The translations under genes were made by a program, and so were the position numbers. From NCBI GenBank assembly GCA_021414145.1, contig JAIOOY010000073.1:1-36836 (forward strand): 36,836 nucleotides of DNA. Direction: 5' to 3'. The notes beneath the pieces were generated by a model, which had not been told where the DNA came from, searched no databases, and was given only the letters and a program-made list of their open reading frames with translations. This document shows positions 27,552 to 32,607 of this stretch, piece after piece. This DNA comes from Methylophilales bacterium. Lineage in GTDB: Bacteria > Pseudomonadota > Gammaproteobacteria > Burkholderiales > Methylophilaceae. How positions within the stretch are numbered: the first letter of the stretch is position 1; each line of letters starts with the position of its first letter.

Positions 27552-27788
27552 TTATGAAATCAAGATTGCGTAGAGTTCATCCTTGAGCTTAAGCCGTTTC
27601 TTTTTGAAATCTTCAAAAGTCTCATCAGCCACAGGAATGTCCTCAGCCTCAAGACGAATCACTTCACGATTCAACAAATGATACTCATCAAACAACTTGG
27701 CGAAATGCGCGTTACTCAACTTGAAACTGTGAATTTTTTCGCGCAACTCAGGAAATTCAGTTACCAGATCGTGATGAACAGCAGCCAT
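27552..27788 (-). CDS. DUF465/YdcH family small helical protein
   Basis: The 78-residue protein is rich in Glu, Lys and Leu and almost wholly helical. It contains HDLVTEFPELREKIHSFKLSNAHFAKLFDEYH, then VIRLEAEDIPVADETFEDFKKKRLKLKDELYAIL-type sequence, the pattern of the YdcH (DUF465) family. These proteins have no settled function; a helical hairpin or coiled coil is expected. The start has an AAGGAGAG site 3 bases upstream whose core can pair with CTCCTT further upstream in the leader. The 117-base spacer above it also holds a perfect dyad TCAATAATG-TT-CATTATTGA near 27839-27858. Confidence 0.8.
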   Translation of the reverse strand: MAAVHHDLVTEFPELREKIHSFKLSNAHFAKLFDEYHLLNREVIRLEAEDIPVADETFEDFKKKRLKLKDELYAILIS

Positions 27789-27823: not shown

Positions 27824-27905
27824 CGATTCTACGCGCTCAATAATGAACATTATTGATCTATATCTACAAATACCTAGTTACAGTGTTGTTTTCCTGCCAC
27901 GCCCT

Positions 27906-28733
27906 CTACTTATTAAACCAAGTCAACGTCCCCGCCTTCATATCCGGCACCAGTATGGTTTTGCCATCGGCGGCTAAACCAATATCCGCAGCGGATTGAA
28001 ACTGCACCTTCACCCATTCCAGGTTCCCATCTTTTTTGAGCGTGAACAGGCGACCATTTTTCCAGTCGCTAATCCAGAGCGCACCGCGTTTGTCACGTAC
28101 TAAACCATCAGCACCACCAAAACCTTCGACCACACGTTCCATCTTGCCGGTGTTGAGGGTGATGCGGTACAACATGCCGGAGACAAAATCCACCATCAGC
28201 AGATGATCGTTACCATCGGCCAGTAAACCATTGGGAGCCAACACGCGCGGGTCATCGCCGTTGACCACAACGGTCACTTTGCCGTCTGCCGCCACGCGAT
28301 ATACCGCACCGCCCCTACCTTGCAGATCCCCACTATCGGATACAAACAGGCTGCCATCCTTGCCGAATTCGAGGTCGTTCAGGAACTGTGGTTTTGCGGG
28401 AAAGGCCTCTGCTGCGACAAATACGCTCCACTTGCCGTCTTTACCCACTTTCAAAATACGCGTCTTATCCGCCACGTACAGCGCGCCTTTTGAGTAGGCC
28501 AATCCCTTGGGATCATCCATACCGCTGGCAAACACTTTAGCCTTGCCGTCTGCGCCTATCACGGCGATATCACCATCCCCATCCTTACCAAATTCGCCTA
28601 TTTCGGAAACATAGATACGTCCATCTGCAACTACCACTGACTCTGGATTCTTCAAGCCTGTAACTACTTTATTTTCGGCGGCATAGGCGTTAAAACTGGC
28701 AATAAGTGCTACAACTAAAATACTATTTTTCAA
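27906..28733 (-). CDS. Secreted SMP-30/gluconolactonase-like beta-propeller protein
   Basis: The 275-residue protein has a Sec signal (MKNSILVVALIASFNAYA) followed by propeller blades with repeated units such as NPESVVVADGRIYVSE, DPKGLAYSKGALYVAD, FLNDLEFGKDGSLFVSD, APNGLLADGNDHLLMVD and ADGLVRDKRGALWISDW. The order fits the SMP-30/gluconolactonase/LRE family, periplasmic by its signal. Substrate and catalysis are unknown; lactonase activity would need conserved metal ligands that I cannot confirm. The start is TTG with GGGAG 8 bases upstream. It begins 12 bases after the unrecognised gene and is the last member of the sulfide-dehydrogenase operon. Confidence 0.8.
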   Translation of the reverse strand: MKNSILVVALIASFNAYAAENKVVTGLKNPESVVVADGRIYVSEIGEFGKDGDGDIAVIGADGKAKVFASGMDDPKGLAYSKGALYVADKTRILKVGKDGKWSVFVAAEAFPAKPQFLNDLEFGKDGSLFVSDSGDLQGRGGAVYRVAADGKVTVVVNGDDPRVLAPNGLLADGNDHLLMVDFVSGMLYRITLNTGKMERVVEGFGGADGLVRDKRGALWISDWKNGRLFTLKKDGNLEWVKVQFQSAADIGLAADGKTILVPDMKAGTLTWFNK

Positions 28734-28745
28734 CTTAACAACTCC

Positions 28746-29327
28746 CTAAAAATATTCAAAAAAACTAAATTTCGGCTCACGCCCGACAATAGACACAATA
28801 CCGCACGGAGAACGCGTAAAGTCGGCCGCCATAGCGGTTTGGATACTGCTCTGCAAGGCGCTGTCTGCCTGTATCTGGGTCATGATATTCTGCATGGCAG
28901 CATCAAAGGCCTTGCCGACTTCGTTATCCTGATAGATTGAAGTCAACTGACCAAACTGTTCGCCTTCGGCCTTGTAGGTAGCCAAAGGCTGACCATCGCC
29001 GCGATGCAACTGTACCTTGAGTTTGGCGTAATAGGTAGACGACGCAGGGTTGTAAACCAAACGGGAATTCACCCAGGCAATGAGATCCGCCGTCTTACCA
29101 GCCTCGCACGCGCCCACGTTACTGAAACGCCGGGCCAAGGCACGACTGGCAGCATCTTCAGCGATGACCGTGTAATCTACCCAACGTGTATAAAGTGGCG
29201 CAACACCCACCACTGTGGGATGCCCGTACCTATCCGGGCTGGTATAAACGAGCAAGCTGGGTTCAGCTGCCCAAGCAGTATTGATCGTCATTACGCCGAC
29301 TAGTGTTGCCAAAAATAATCGTTTCAA
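28746..29327 (-). CDS. Exported protein of unknown function
   Basis: I do not recognise this 193-residue protein. It has a Sec signal (MKRLFLATLVGVMTINTAWA) and a mature part with no hydrophobic segment. Notable stretches are VVGVAPLYTRWVDYTVIAEDAASRALARRF, YYAKLKVQLHRGDGQPLATYKAEGE and AFDAAMQNIMTQIQADSALQSSIQ. Two cysteines (in VGACEAG and SPCGIV) could form a disulfide. The mixed strand-helix pattern vaguely recalls accessory lipoproteins of transport systems, but there is no lipobox. It begins with TTG overlapping the stop of the propeller gene upstream as TTGA, with AGGAG 7 bases before, so it is translated with its neighbours. Confidence 0.75.
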   Translation of the reverse strand: MKRLFLATLVGVMTINTAWAAEPSLLVYTSPDRYGHPTVVGVAPLYTRWVDYTVIAEDAASRALARRFSNVGACEAGKTADLIAWVNSRLVYNPASSTYYAKLKVQLHRGDGQPLATYKAEGEQFGQLTSIYQDNEVGKAFDAAMQNIMTQIQADSALQSSIQTAMAADFTRSPCGIVSIVGREPKFSFFEYF

Positions 29328-30496
29328 TTGGATTCTCCTTTGTAGATTATCCGATACACCAAACCTGCCCTATCGTCCGAAATATACACCGCACCATCTG
29401 GCGCTACCGCTACGTCTACCGGCCTGCCCCATGCACCTTTGTTGGATAGCCAGCCAGTAATGAAGTCGCTCACCTTTACTGGCTTGTCTTGCTCAAAGTG
29501 TACTCTAACTACTTTGTAACCTGAAGGCTGGTTTCGGTTCCATGAACCATGCAAAGCGACCAGCGCATCTGAACGGTACTCCACCGGAAATGTGGTTTTG
29601 TCCAGAAAAGCGATGCCTATAGGCGTGGAATGCGCTGGCAAAGTAATGGCTGGAGACTGCATGCTAGAGCAATCCCCGGCAAAGTTAGGGTCAACAAACT
29701 TGTCGCCCCAACAATGCGGCCAACCGTAAAAACCGCCTGCCTGAATCTGGTTAAGATGCTCCGGCGGCAAATCATCATTCACCACACCGTTCTTGTTGCC
29801 GGAACGCATATCCGCGCCATTGTTAGTGGCAAACAACTCGCCGGTTTTTGGATGCCAAGCGAAGCCTTGCGTGTTGCGCAGTCCCGTTGCCCAGATGGAG
29901 CTTGGCGCATGGCGACCTAAGGTCTGTAAAGCGCCAGCTGGCTTTCCTTCCACCGTGTAGCGCAGCATGGTGGCACGTAGCGGCTCATTCTCTACGCACA
30001 CATTACAACTGGAACCCACATTGAGATACAAATAACCGTCGGGCCCTAGCTTCAAAGTTTTCTTGGTGTGGCCGCCCGATGGCAGATCAAAAATCACTGG
30101 CATGGCACGGCCATCCTCCAGCTTTACCACCCCATCCTGATTCGCCACGTACAACATATCACCGACAAAAGCCAAGCCATGTGGTCCGTTGAGTTGCTCG
30201 GCCACAATGATCACCTTATCAGCCACCCCGTCATGATTGGCATCCGGTAGCTTAACCACTTTGTTGTCTAGCCCCAAAGATAGATAAAGATCGCCTTGCG
30301 GACTGAATGCCATCATGCGTGGACCACGAAAATAGCTACTTCCTCCAGATTCCAACCTTGCGAAGATAGTGGCTTGAAAGCCAGTGGGGAGTTTGAGTGC
30401 TGAAATTGGATCGGGCGGAACAGGCAGCATTGAAGCCAAATCAGCGCGTGATAAAGCAGCAAAAAACAACAACAAAAAGTAAGAAATTATCCGCAT
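29324..30496 (-). CDS. PQQ-type sugar/sorbosone dehydrogenase-like beta-propeller, exported
   Basis: The 390-residue protein has a Sec signal (MRIISYFLLLFFAALSRA) and a six-bladed propeller resembling soluble glucose dehydrogenase and L-sorbosone dehydrogenase. Key stretches are LPTGFQATIFARL, NGPHGLAFVGDMLYVAN, GGHTKKTLKLGPDGYLYLNVGSSC, ATGLRNTQGFAWHPKTGELFATNNG, GGFYGWPHCWG and LVALHGSWNRNQPSGYKVVRV. The family oxidises aldoses or related polyols with PQQ, but many members have no known substrate. There is no heme motif. A TTG at 30508 is possible; the ATG at 30494-30496 gives a better signal peptide. It follows the FCSD gene by 13 bases. Confidence 0.82.
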   Translation of the reverse strand: MRIISYFLLLFFAALSRADLASMLPVPPDPISALKLPTGFQATIFARLESGGSSYFRGPRMMAFSPQGDLYLSLGLDNKVVKLPDANHDGVADKVIIVAEQLNGPHGLAFVGDMLYVANQDGVVKLEDGRAMPVIFDLPSGGHTKKTLKLGPDGYLYLNVGSSCNVCVENEPLRATMLRYTVEGKPAGALQTLGRHAPSSIWATGLRNTQGFAWHPKTGELFATNNGADMRSGNKNGVVNDDLPPEHLNQIQAGGFYGWPHCWGDKFVDPNFAGDCSSMQSPAITLPAHSTPIGIAFLDKTTFPVEYRSDALVALHGSWNRNQPSGYKVVRVHFEQDKPVKVSDFITGWLSNKGAWGRPVDVAVAPDGAVYISDDRAGLVYRIIYKGESN

Positions 30497-30509
30497 GGCC
30501 TTAACCAAA

Positions 30510-31763
30510 TCAGGTTAATACATCACTCCATATATTTTTAGCCCACGCCTGCGCAAACTTTCCTTCCTGCTCACTTGGCTTGTCAGAGACACCACCTCCA
30601 TCGGCGGGCAACATGACTTTTTTGGCTGAGTCATAACGGTATACATTTGCAACATGCATCGCCAGTTTGTCCGACACATAGCTGTAACAAGTATTGGCAA
30701 ACACGGGTTGTGGATCAGGGTCTTGTCCGGCCAGCAAATTGGCAATCGCCGAGGCACATACTTTAGCTTGTGAAGTAGCCATGTGGGCGGACTTGGGCAG
30801 TGCGGCGGAAACTGAATCACCGATGATGTGCACGTTGGGTGCCACTTTGGATTCGTAGGTCAAAAAATCCACCTCGCACCAGCGTTTATCCACGTTGGCA
30901 ACACCCGCCAGTTGTGCGACTTTGCCCGCGCGTTGTGGTGGGATTACGTTGAGCACGTCGGCTTTGACTGTTTCGAACTCGGTCTTCACCGTGCGATTTG
31001 CTACGTCCACTTCCATCACTTGGCTGTTTGCCCGATATTCGATCATGCCGGGATACAAGTCCGCCCACGCGTTGGTGAACAAACTCTTTTTGGAAGTGAT
31101 TTCAGGGTTCGCATCCAGCACGATGATTTTGGATTTTGGTTTGTAGTTTTTAAGGTAAAAAGCTACCTGACTGACGCGCTCATACGGCCCCGGCGGGCAA
31201 CGGTACGGCGCTTTGGGGATGCTAATCACAAACACGCCACCGTCAGTCATGGTTTCCAATTGTAGGCGCAGATTGACAGTTTGTTCACCCGCTTTCCAAG
31301 CGTGGGGGATGATTTGCTGCGCGTCAGAGCTTTGCAACATGGGGAGACTTTCCCACATAAAGTCCACGCCAGGCGCAACAATGAGGCGCTCGTAGCCCAA
31401 CTCATCGCCATCATCCATGACGATGCGGCGCTTGGTCACATCTACCGCCGTCACTTCAGCATATAAGCGCTTGACGTGATAATTATCTAAACCGGAAAAG
31501 TTGAACGTGAGGTCGCCTATCTTCTTGCTGCCGCCTAGTACCAGATTGCTCAAGGGGCAGGAAATAAAAGTGGTGCTCTGCTCAATCAGCACTATTTCCA
31601 CTGCCTCACCCGCCCATAAACGCAAATACTTGGCTGCCGTAGCACCGGCGTATCCGCCGCCAATAATGATGATGCGCTTAGTCACGCTCGCCCAGCTTGG
31701 TTGTGGCAACGCGCCTAAGGCTGCTCCGGCACCCACTAATTTAAGAAAGTCGCGGCGTAGCAT
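30510..31763 (-). CDS. fccB: Flavocytochrome c sulfide dehydrogenase flavoprotein (FccB/SoxF type)
   Basis: The 417-residue protein opens with a Tat signal (MLRRDFLKLVGAGAALG). The FAD domain starts RIIIIGGGYAGATAAKYLR and includes YERLIVAPGVDF and NVHIIGDSV. A C-terminal FCSD flavin-binding region follows. Cys69 in FISCPLSN would be about residue 42 of the mature protein, the covalent FAD attachment site in Allochromatium FCSD. Cys189 (YRCPPGPYE) and Cys359 (NTCYSYVSD) correspond to its redox-active disulfide. The enzyme oxidises sulfide to sulfur or polysulfide in the periplasm and passes electrons to a cytochrome c subunit, whose likely gene lies immediately upstream (2-base gap). SoxF homologues can also assist thiosulfate oxidation. 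Confidence 0.92.
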   Translation of the reverse strand: MLRRDFLKLVGAGAALGALPQPSWASVTKRIIIIGGGYAGATAAKYLRLWAGEAVEIVLIEQSTTFISCPLSNLVLGGSKKIGDLTFNFSGLDNYHVKRLYAEVTAVDVTKRRIVMDDGDELGYERLIVAPGVDFMWESLPMLQSSDAQQIIPHAWKAGEQTVNLRLQLETMTDGGVFVISIPKAPYRCPPGPYERVSQVAFYLKNYKPKSKIIVLDANPEITSKKSLFTNAWADLYPGMIEYRANSQVMEVDVANRTVKTEFETVKADVLNVIPPQRAGKVAQLAGVANVDKRWCEVDFLTYESKVAPNVHIIGDSVSAALPKSAHMATSQAKVCASAIANLLAGQDPDPQPVFANTCYSYVSDKLAMHVANVYRYDSAKKVMLPADGGGVSDKPSEQEGKFAQAWAKNIWSDVLT

Positions 31764-31765
31764 GA

Positions 31766-32104
31766 TTAGAAGTTGAGTGGCATGGGTGATGCAGATGCCT
31801 TACGTGGTTGTGCTGCGAAGTAGTCGGCCAACAGCTCGATTTCAACCTCGGTCAAGCCTTTGGCGTGATGTTGCATAACAGTGGAAGGGCGGTCGCCCTT
31901 GCGAAAAGCCATCATCTGAGTGACAAAATACGTCCTATCCAAGCCCGCCAGTACTGGTGTTCCTCCCACACTGTTACCGTTGCTTCCATGACATGCCGCA
32001 CAAGAAGCCGCCAATACCCGTATATGGTTATTTGCCTCAACCGCGCCTGCGGACAAGGCATAACTCATCAACAAGCATGCAGCTAGATTTTTTGCAGCTG
32101 TCAT
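31766..32104 (-). CDS. Monoheme class I cytochrome c, probable FccA-type partner
   Basis: The 112-residue precursor has a Sec signal (MTAAKNLAACLLMSYALSAGA) and one heme site CAACH in the context VLAASCAACHGSNGNS. GGTPVLAGLDRTYFVTQMMAFRKGDRPSTVM includes a Met as possible axial ligand, and a C-terminal helix begins EVEIELLADYFAAQ. This is the c553/FccA family fold. It should accept electrons from the adjacent flavoprotein; classic purple-sulfur FccA has two hemes, here only one. A GTG at 32131 is in frame and would overlap the ankyrin gene by 10 bases, but the ATG at 32102-32104 gives a cleaner signal peptide. Confidence 0.9.
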   Translation of the reverse strand: MTAAKNLAACLLMSYALSAGAVEANNHIRVLAASCAACHGSNGNSVGGTPVLAGLDRTYFVTQMMAFRKGDRPSTVMQHHAKGLTEVEIELLADYFAAQPRKASASPMPLNF

Positions 32105-32121
32105 GTAGTGGAAACTGTGCT

Positions 32122-32607
32122 TCAGAAGCACTTATCGTCTTTACAGCCGTCATCTTTGGCACCGTATTTGGTCAACAGTTTGACCGTTTCAGCATTCCCC
32201 TGGTCTGCTGCCATGCGCAAAAGGGAAACACCGCCACGGATTTTGATGTTGGGGTCAGCACCCTTTTGCAACAAATATTCCAGCAAATCATTATTGCCGT
32301 CATATGCCGCGTGTGCGCTAGCGGTCATTTTGGTGATGGGATGACGATAATTGATATCAGCGCCACGCTCCGCCAAGACTTTCACTACCGCCAATTGATT
32401 TTTAGCCGCGGCGGACAACAAAGGTGACCAGCCAAAGAACACGTCCTTCACCGATGCCACACCCGAGTCCAAGTACTTATTCACCGTAGCCGTGTCACCC
32501 TCGGTCACCGCACCCATAAACTCGATTTGCTCGTCATCTGTCATTGCATAAGTCATGAAGGGTGCGAACAATGCGACCGCCAAAATTACACTTTTAATAA
32601 ACTTCAA
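32122..32607 (-). CDS. Exported ankyrin-repeat protein
   Basis: The 161-residue protein has a Sec signal (MKFIKSVILAVALFAPFMTYA) and then about four ankyrin repeats, marked by GWSPLLSAAAKNQLAVVKVLAERGADIN, SAHAAYDGNNDLLEYLLQKGADPN and SLLRMAADQGNAETVKLLTKYGAKDD. It ends with two cysteines in GCKDDKCF. Ankyrin proteins bind partners and have no catalysis of their own. A periplasmic form encoded with oxidoreductases could protect or scaffold them, as AnkB does for catalase in Pseudomonas. An AGGAGAG site precedes the ATG. It appears to be the first gene of the sulfide-dehydrogenase operon, 53 bases after purL. A GTTAAT-N6-ATTAAC dyad lies at 32640-32657. Confidence 0.85.
   Translation of the reverse strand: MKFIKSVILAVALFAPFMTYAMTDDEQIEFMGAVTEGDTATVNKYLDSGVASVKDVFFGWSPLLSAAAKNQLAVVKVLAERGADINYRHPITKMTASAHAAYDGNNDLLEYLLQKGADPNIKIRGGVSLLRMAADQGNAETVKLLTKYGAKDDGCKDDKCF

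Follow-up and report, generated by a model that had tools for sequence, protein, structure and literature searches.

Methylophilaceae are methanol-using Betaproteobacteria. The family holds obligate and facultative methylotrophs, as stated in the available part of PMC4611497. Each recognisable product of the locus studied here has described relatives, namely, flavocytochrome c sulfide dehydrogenases (FCSD) of the FccAB/SoxEF type, the pyranose dehydrogenase CcPDH of auxiliary activity family AA12, and the SMP-30/gluconolactonase/DFPase propellers. The PQQ-contacting residues of CcPDH are listed in PMC6881789, which in its available part describes Ser449 of AA12 enzymes as 'relatively well preserved', thus not universal. 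For ankyrin-repeat proteins, the nearest parallel is Cj1386 of Campylobacter, which is involved in haem trafficking to catalase (PMC9426514, available part). The first-pass annotation knew of no described system with the composition of this locus, and a limited literature search likewise found no description of the six-gene arrangement. In this study, the layout, conservation and likely function of the cluster were analysed, and we favour with moderate confidence a periplasmic operon that Methylophilaceae have inherited vertically and that is built from separable modules, in which a sulfide-oxidising pair would stand beside a PQQ-type dehydrogenase and hydrolase with two accessory proteins.

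Layout of the locus and export signals

The window, that is, the whole stretch of 36,836 nucleotides analysed, carries the six genes as first described, all on the minus strand behind purL:

purL, 36611-32661 (-), phosphoribosylformylglycinamidine synthase, named by inspection of the translation
ank, 32607-32122 (-), ankyrin-repeat protein of 161 aa, TTG start after AGGAGAG
cyt, 32104-31766 (-), monoheme cytochrome c, alternative GTG start at 32131
fcsd, 31763-30510 (-), FCSD-type flavoprotein of 417 aa
gsdh, 30496-29324 (-), 'sorbosone dehydrogenase' family protein of 390 aa, alternative TTG start at 30508
p3, 29327-28746 (-), protein of 193 aa without a named family
smp, 28733-27906 (-), SMP-30-like six-bladed propeller

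The coordinates bear out the tight packing, with gaps of 17 bases between ank and cyt (a 10-base overlap if cyt starts at GTG), 2 between cyt and fcsd, 13 between fcsd and gsdh (1 if gsdh starts at TTG) and 12 between p3 and smp, and a 4-base overlap of gsdh and p3. The end of purL lies 53 bases upstream of ank; this gene is the constant upstream neighbour and is outside the proposed function. A sigma-70 scan returned fewer sites than in shuffled sequences and was uninformative on internal promoters. The domain calls made earlier also held, since Ank_2, Cytochrom_C, FCSD_central, FCSD-flav_bind, GSDH and SGL all scored above the Pfam cut-offs and the fifth protein had no family above cut-off.

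All six products are probably exported, as had been proposed. Model support was obtained for fcsd, of which the Tat signal passed the TIGR01409 cut-off and fell under that of Pfam TAT_signal (17.2 vs 22.7); the N-termini of ank, cyt, gsdh, p3 and smp were judged Sec-signal-like by eye. The p3 of the window appears by eye to have a plain signal peptide and no lipobox. Lipobox-like N-termini were seen by eye in some orthologues, as expected for periplasmic proteins.

Conservation of the cluster in Methylophilaceae

The main count of conservation was based on 66 loci of the same family. All six genes followed purL in the order of the window in 40 of the 66, and the cluster genes lay on one strand in every locus; the neighbourhood check therefore spoke against a chance assembly. 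Among the named-record loci, which were found with smp and come largely from the same organisms as the other set, 42/80 had all six in order. The cluster occurs in the named culturable genera Methylobacillus, Methylovorus, Methylotenera and Methylophilus. Among the screened genes, ank was next after purL in 66/66 family loci. Beyond smp the neighbour varied: across 64 loci, flgA was found in 7 and serB-sucC in 39, neither was found in the available stretch in 12, and the sequence was too short in 6. Conservation inside the cluster thus exceeds family-wide synteny.

The cluster is not one fixed system, and its modules are separable. Genes cyt and fcsd were always kept or lost as a pair (59 loci with both, 7 with neither), and 6 of the 7 loci without them retained gsdh. 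Conversely, gsdh was missing in 14/66 loci, 13 of which retained cyt and fcsd. Mapped on a 65-row purL tree, the distribution of fcsd needs at least 6 changes and that of gsdh at least 5. Thirteen of the 14 loci without gsdh kept smp in place, and in the 14th (L068) smp was cut by the contig end; ank was retained in all 7 loci without cyt. Three genomes (G001, G021 and G029) had no smp at the locus (L080, L082 and L132) and carried one elsewhere. Split genes over two overlapping frames were observed for gsdh in three loci (L094, L125 and L135) and for cyt in one (L082), reflecting either decay or sequence errors.

A separate set of 20 loci came from small genomes of about 1.0-1.4 Mb. Here ank again followed purL among the screened genes in 20/20 loci; the arrangement purL-ank-smp was found in 8, purL-ank without smp nearby in 7, and smp near ank in 13. 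Because smp persists in the absence of gsdh, and ank in the absence of either, a use independent of this gsdh must exist for smp and one independent of both genes for ank. Retention in these small genomes suggests that the ank-smp part matters under strong genome reduction.

Candidate functions of the products

The products of cyt and fcsd look like an ordinary flavocytochrome c sulfide dehydrogenase pair. The flavoprotein scored 153.2 bits for FCSD_central (cut-off 27) and 78.5 bits for FCSD-flav_bind (cut-off 26), and its profile matched 5n1t, 1fcd and 3vrd at 1.2e-121 or better. C69, C189 and C359 were invariant (25/25 rows) and aligned opposite Cys of 5n1t; we take them to be the FAD-linking Cys and the redox-active Cys pair. 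The cytochrome is monoheme with one CxxCH, and its family profile matched the FCSD haem subunits 5n1t_B, 3vrd_A and 1fcd_C as well as c4/c552-type cytochromes. A c-type cytochrome gene accompanied fcsd in 59/59 fcsd-bearing loci. The domains, the invariant Cys and the solved relatives thus agree with the earlier view that this pair is the set expected for sulfide. Outside the family, elsewhere in the order, cyt adjoined fcsd in 25/25 loci (L168-L192), with the other four cluster genes absent within about 1.5 kb in each.

The product of gsdh looks like a PQQ-type dehydrogenase of the 'sorbosone dehydrogenase' family. The GSDH domain reached 73.5 bits (cut-off 25) and the Pfam AA12 (TrAA12) model 16.8 bits, under its cut-off of 30.9; the protein is therefore called AA12-like and not an AA12 member. 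Its profile match to 6jt5 spanned positions 69-404 of the 409 in the profile. Nine PQQ contacts of CcPDH were scored (R273, H363, R430, N431, H539, H560, W563, N564 and R621, the chain numbering being shifted by 239 as deduced from the HGSWN motif), and each column was kept in 28/28 rows of gsdh. At the active-site Ca-ligand positions, D451 (a position often Glu) was Asp and S449 was Gly, both in 28/28 rows. The pqqE gene was found in 57/60 genomes of the family, the two others of the genus among them, and not in the window's own assembly, which is 72% complete.

The product of smp is an SMP-30-like propeller with likely Ca-site residues, as judged from its sequence and a predicted structure with a pLDDT of 94.0. 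Its SGL domain scored 58.6 bits (cut-off 26.3). The model gave Z 32.2 to Ca-bound Cj1041c and about 30 to DFPase and the lactonase RPA3624; designed propellers and the NHL domains found in TRIM proteins reached Z 29-30 too, so the fold alone is no proof of an enzyme. The candidate Ca-site residues E31, N119, N168 and D209, matched to DFPase by order and spacing and not by residue-level superposition, were kept in 25/25 rows; this Glu-Asn-Asn-Asp set presumably corresponds to the SMP-30/DFPase metal site. Matches to smp at E 1e-40, a threshold loose enough to let fused paralogues through as well, occurred in 140/150 family genomes. In 11 paralogous loci elsewhere in the family, which were picked for long frames, gsdh and smp form a single fused protein with both sites intact in 11/11 full rows; other gsdh paralogues are unfused, with frames of 437-458 aa (G002, G013, G017, G030, G032 and G043).

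For ank, the Ank_2 match of 71.3 bits is accompanied by a conserved C-terminal Cys pair, and 140/150 family genomes had a match at E 1e-20. For p3, no Pfam or NCBIfam family scored above cut-off, the nearest being Lipoprotein_16 (14.4 bits, cut-off 25), and there were 0 matches up to E 1 among solved structures. The AlphaFold2 model of p3 (mean pLDDT 85.9) suggests a PelC/LptE/PqiC/CsgG-like fold at middling scores (Foldseek best PqiC at 3.5e-4; VIA comparison Z up to 9.7, rmsd 3.5-3.7, 133-138 residues aligned).

Interpretation and comparison with known systems

Under the modular reading that we favour, sulfide would be oxidised at the FAD/cysteine site of the first module (cyt and fcsd) and electrons would pass to the monoheme cytochrome. 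In the second module, gsdh would act as a PQQ/Ca-dependent AA12-like dehydrogenase on a hydroxy or hemiacetal compound, and smp, as an SMP-30-type Ca-dependent propeller, would hydrolyse its product, most likely a lactone. The products of ank and p3 may have accessory roles in the periplasm and work for the locus irrespective of which oxidoreductase it carries. What both modules would have in common is their location and probably their transcription, and not a cytochrome. The earlier suggestion of a second, PQQ-like chemistry feeding the same cytochrome therefore stands in part: the residues point to a PQQ-type enzyme, and the separate loss of gsdh and cyt argues against the common cytochrome.

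A single obligate periplasmic complex of all six products, with the PQQ enzyme and FCSD both reducing one monoheme cytochrome, would suit the tight packing, the conserved order and the apparent export of every product. The p3 model also resembles the ring-formers PelC, a dodecamer according to its structure entry, and CsgG. Nevertheless, the absence of cyt in 7/66 loci with gsdh kept in 6, the absence of gsdh in 14/66 with cyt and fcsd kept in 13, the 6 and 5 changes that the purL tree requires at the least and the 25/25 pairs outside the family without the other four genes nearby make the larger complex raised by the first-pass annotation improbable in its obligate form. Somewhat more credible, and still unlikely, is a conserved spot behind purL that has collected unrelated periplasmic genes and been kept vertically, with ank, p3 and smp unconnected to FCSD. 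The constancy of purL-ank (66/66 and 20/20 loci), the independent gain or loss of fcsd-cyt and gsdh, and the three genomes with smp elsewhere fit this explanation; however, the 4-base overlap and 2-17-base gaps, the fixed interior beside a variable downstream boundary, and the fusions, which link at least gsdh and smp, weigh against it.

The substrates admit further readings. The FCSD-like pair might act mainly on another reduced sulfur compound, such as a thiol or persulfide derived from methylated sulfur compounds, in place of sulfide. A stable-isotope probing study implicated Methylophilaceae in the breakdown of DMS, with FCSD genes increasing in its heavy fraction (PMC4611497, available part). 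Sulfide formed from DMS would, however, agree just as well with the sulfide reading, and the signature residues and domains are standard; we consider such a substrate very improbable. We also give little weight to the more specific idea that gsdh and smp form a two-step oxidase (an alcohol or hemiacetal becoming a lactone or ester and after that an acid) acting on a periplasmic adduct of methanol oxidation, e.g. formaldehyde bound to sugars or thiols, with FCSD removing nearby sulfide, ank and p3 serving as assembly factors, and the whole being a family-wide clean-up or energy module.

In methanol specialists one would not expect a single putative operon to bring together a sulfide dehydrogenase, a lactonase-like propeller and a PQQ dehydrogenase of the sugar type. 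The locus offers a defined gene set for seeking a periplasmic substrate of methylotrophs, and a place to seek a sulfide-removal route during the use of methylated sulfur compounds.

Compared with FCSD of the FccAB/SoxEF type (PDB 1fcd, 3vrd and 5n1t), the window pair agrees in its flavoprotein domains, its invariant cysteines, the Tat-type signal and the adjacent CxxCH cytochrome gene, with a cytochrome of monoheme size as in 5n1t_B (102 residues); it differs in being embedded in a six-gene set, whereas the pair stands without the other four in the 25 loci elsewhere. Cj1386 resembles ank in that its gene lies beside that of a haem protein; ank is, by contrast, retained in the 7/66 loci without cyt, and haem delivery to this cytochrome is therefore not its only role. 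The p3 model may have the overall fold of PelC/LptE/PqiC/CsgG-like proteins, given the middling scores, and p3 differs from these in that no sequence family matches above cut-off and that the window protein appears by eye to start with a plain signal peptide in place of a lipobox. The nearest solved propellers to smp are Cj1041c (22gu, Ca-bound) and the lactonase RPA3624 (7ris); smp shares the six-bladed fold (Z about 30-32) and the residue order E21, N120, N175 and D229 of DFPase (positions from mutant titles). It differs in its identity of about 20-28% and in standing next to a PQQ-type enzyme, with which it is also found fused. Finally, gsdh has all nine PQQ contacts of the Coprinopsis AA12 pyranose dehydrogenase CcPDH (PDB 6jt5), seven of which are made via side chains and two (Trp563 and Asn564) via the main chain, as well as its active-site Asp and a near full-length profile match. 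Unlike the fungal enzyme, gsdh lacks a cytochrome b domain, has Gly at Ser449, carries an invariant CxxC (C164, C167) where the aligned stretch of 6jt5 is without cysteine, and occurs in methylotrophs.

Arrangement and conservation of the cluster

Six genes in tandem occupy the minus strand, flanked by purL, the constant gene upstream of ank, and by a small gene that encodes 77 amino acids or more; their junctions range from a 4-base overlap to a 17-base gap. On re-reading, the order, strand and packing claimed in the first-pass annotation were correct. The cyt and gsdh genes each have two candidate start codons. The names purL, flgA, serB, sucC and sucD were assigned by eye. The features are as follows:

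27906–32607, minus strand: the six-gene cluster, in the order
ank, ankyrin-repeat protein
cyt, single-haem cytochrome c
fcsd, FCSD flavoprotein with a Tat-type signal
gsdh, 'glucose/sorbosone dehydrogenase' propeller
p3, 193-aa protein
smp, SMP-30-like propeller
27837–27856: short palindromic sequence with 9-base arms on either side of AA, possibly an operator, between smp and the small gene starting at 27788

Eighty regions (L062–L141) were hand-chosen from part of the FCSD and p3 matches in 150 genomes of the family Methylophilaceae. Eleven regions without the cluster (lone p3 or lone fcsd and cyt) and three truncated ones (L108, L118 and L131) were set aside, and 66 loci were retained, whose counts are non-independent owing to shared ancestry. 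L112 and L113 are two copies in one genome, and L062 and L068 were kept and scored as smp-absent though the contig end cuts smp.

Table. Composition of the cluster in 66 Methylophilaceae loci
purL-ank-cyt-fcsd-gsdh-p3-smp complete and in order: 40
Without gsdh only: 12
Without cyt and fcsd only: 6
Without smp only: 4 (including L062, where the contig ends)
Without p3 only: 2
Without gsdh and smp: 1 (L068, smp lost to the contig end)
Without cyt, fcsd and gsdh: 1

The cluster is conserved over the family. Its genes lie on one strand in all 66 loci, and the reading frame is split in two for gsdh in three loci and for cyt in one. Among the 150 genomes, matches were obtained for ank in 140 (E 1e-20), smp in 140 (E 1e-40, a limit that also lets in fused gsdh-smp paralogues), p3 in 117, FCSD in 111 (part of these being distant SQR-like matches only) and gsdh in 83 (E 1e-100); ank and smp were each matched in 106 of the 108 good-quality genomes. 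In 20 loci of small genomes (about 1.0–1.4 Mb) picked from the match lists, ank always followed purL, with smp directly after ank in eight, gsdh and smp after ank in two, smp about 1.3 kb past ank in three and smp not nearby in seven. In genus g10, a gene of 413–432 aa that appears MFS transporter-like by eye lies between p3 and smp (L109, 8149–9390; L111, 5585–6883).

Named loci were collected with smp as the best 80 of 182 matches, a set that overlaps the 150 genomes; 57 were titled Methylophilaceae, Methylophilales or a genus of the family, and the other 23 mostly by phylum or class only. All six genes occurred in order in 42 of the 80, 33 of them with Methylophilaceae-type titles. Among these 80, the nearest relative of the window's assembly, with smp 95% identical, was titled Methylophilaceae bacterium. 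Seven loci carried smp and no other cluster gene, including L231 and L233 (titled Methylococcaceae) and L300 (Variovorax), and a contig titled Sulfuritalea (L263) carried ank-cyt-fcsd-p3-smp.

The gene past smp was examined in the 64 loci with full smp, including the three truncated ones; it was flgA in 7, serB-sucC in 39, neither within the available stretch in 12 and unreadable in 6. The inside of the cluster is thus fixed while its outer neighbour changes, which favours a real unit. A neighbourhood formed by chance was rejected on the conserved gene order, complete in 40 loci, together with the variable downstream boundary. In several family genomes a second, larger ankyrin-repeat protein is encoded directly behind sucCD-like genes, about 3–5 kb past smp (L079, L244, L306 and others), at a separate locus.

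The cytochrome–flavoprotein pair

The FCSD profile matched solved FCSDs at 1.2e-121 or better, and three cysteines of known function were invariant in 25 of 25 rows. The cyt profile matched FCSD haem subunits and also c4/c552-type cytochromes. Judged by sequence, there is no reason to doubt sulfide as the probable FCSD substrate. In PMC4611497, FCSD genes are reported as more numerous in DMS-labelled metagenomes, and the methylotrophy and sulfur genes there are related mainly to Methylophilaceae and Thiobacillus; PMC8399692 lists fccA and sqr for Methylophilus genomes.

The first-pass annotation had proposed a larger periplasmic complex, or a second oxidation chemistry feeding the same cytochrome. 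Both cyt and fcsd were present in 59 of the 66 loci and both missing in 7, and gsdh was missing in 14, one of these also lacking fcsd. A FastTree purL tree required at least six changes for fcsd and five for gsdh. It had 65 rows, the window and L108 among them, with L113 and three loci whose purL pieces were short excluded, and 12 of its 62 inner branches were open. In the rest of the order, an FCSD-profile match, distant ones included, was found in 214 of 250 genomes; cyt adjoined fcsd in all 25 outside loci read, and gsdh, p3, ank and smp were absent from their available flanks. From the joint absence of cyt and fcsd, the separate absence of gsdh and the lone pairs outside, the sulfide pair has the look of an ancient, portable module, and the gsdh gene does not rely on its cytochrome. 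The absence patterns give no support to one shared cytochrome, and the single six-member complex is likewise unsupported. A more distant cyt and fcsd pair stands alone at L110, L114, L115, L140 and L141, as a second copy in some genomes.

The two propellers

Profile positions 69–404 of 409 of gsdh aligned with the fungal AA12 enzyme 6jt5. PMC6881789 gives seven side-chain PQQ contacts and two main-chain contacts (Trp563 and Asn564); the nine columns at these positions were identical in 28 of 28 gsdh rows. Compared with 6jt5, gsdh keeps the nine contacts and the active-site Asp, and has Gly at Ser449. The protein is termed AA12-like because the Pfam AA12 model scored under its cut-off. The putative second, PQQ-like oxidation chemistry suggested earlier is well supported at residue level. 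The pqqE gene was present in 57 of 60 family genomes and was not found in the window's own assembly (1.45 Mb, 72% complete). Of 72,556 plasmid records, 343 matched gsdh, every one below 60% identity, with no close copy among them. No other cluster gene was present in the flanks of 25 GSDH relatives outside the family (L198–L222), and the smp half was absent from three outside loci read further (L337–L339).

The predicted smp model (pLDDT 94.0) was superposed on Ca-bound Cj1041c (Z 32.2, rmsd 2.3, 245 aligned). Superposition gave Z of about 30 with DFPase and with the lactonase RPA3624, and Z 29–30 with designed propellers and TRIM-protein NHL domains; because these last two score so closely, the fold alone is no proof of a hydrolase. 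Four smp residues, presumably the metal site as in DFPase, were invariant in 25 of 25 rows.

At second loci of family genomes, gsdh-like and smp-like matches share long reading frames. In 11 genomes (L326–L336), chosen for long frames so that 11 is no frequency, all were single fused proteins of 605–676 aa with an apparent signal, and the nine PQQ-contacting and four metal-site residues were all kept in the 11 full-length rows. The search yielded domain rows for gsdh (27, of which 16 partial) and for smp (22, of which 11 partial); the partial rows, nearly all gapped at the sites, were left out of the count. These fusions are the best evidence for sequential action, and suggest that gsdh and smp may perform oxidation and then hydrolysis. 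However, the family also has unfused gsdh paralogues, and smp and ank persist without gsdh in many genomes, so the putative hydrolase must have another use too.

Possible accessory proteins and comparison with known systems

The p3 protein belongs to no sequence family, and its predicted model (pLDDT 85.9) resembles PelC, PqiC, LptE and CsgG with middling scores, which suggests a possible envelope accessory protein. Membership of Lipoprotein_16 was rejected with a score under the cut-off, and a search of viral contigs gave no match. Weak p3-like matches outside the family occurred in 7 of 250 order genomes, with no other cluster gene in flanks that extended at most about 1.5 kb in either direction; one such genome has three close together (L152, L157 and L162; G238:C5:74081-75706), one of them stop-interrupted.

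Separable periplasmic modules, namely cyt and fcsd for sulfide, gsdh and smp as PQQ dehydrogenase and lactonase-type hydrolase, and ank and p3 as accessories, are on balance the probable explanation of the cluster as a whole; confidence was slightly lowered, given the nearly equal fit of NHL and designed propellers to the smp model and the occurrence of gsdh paralogues that are not fused, and the difference was assigned to the rival readings of passive co-inheritance behind purL and of another substrate for the FCSD pair. As the first-pass annotation had stated, no described system of this composition was found, here in a limited search of openly accessible papers. The cluster is real and consists of known parts in an arrangement for which that search gave no description. 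Compared with the DFPase site, the four smp residues are of the same types in the same order and roughly similarly spaced, the DFPase positions being taken from entry titles. Apart from purL, no gene of the locus is as constant as ank; a Campylobacter ankyrin-repeat protein aids haem delivery to catalase (PMC9426514), whereas ank of this cluster is retained where cyt is missing.
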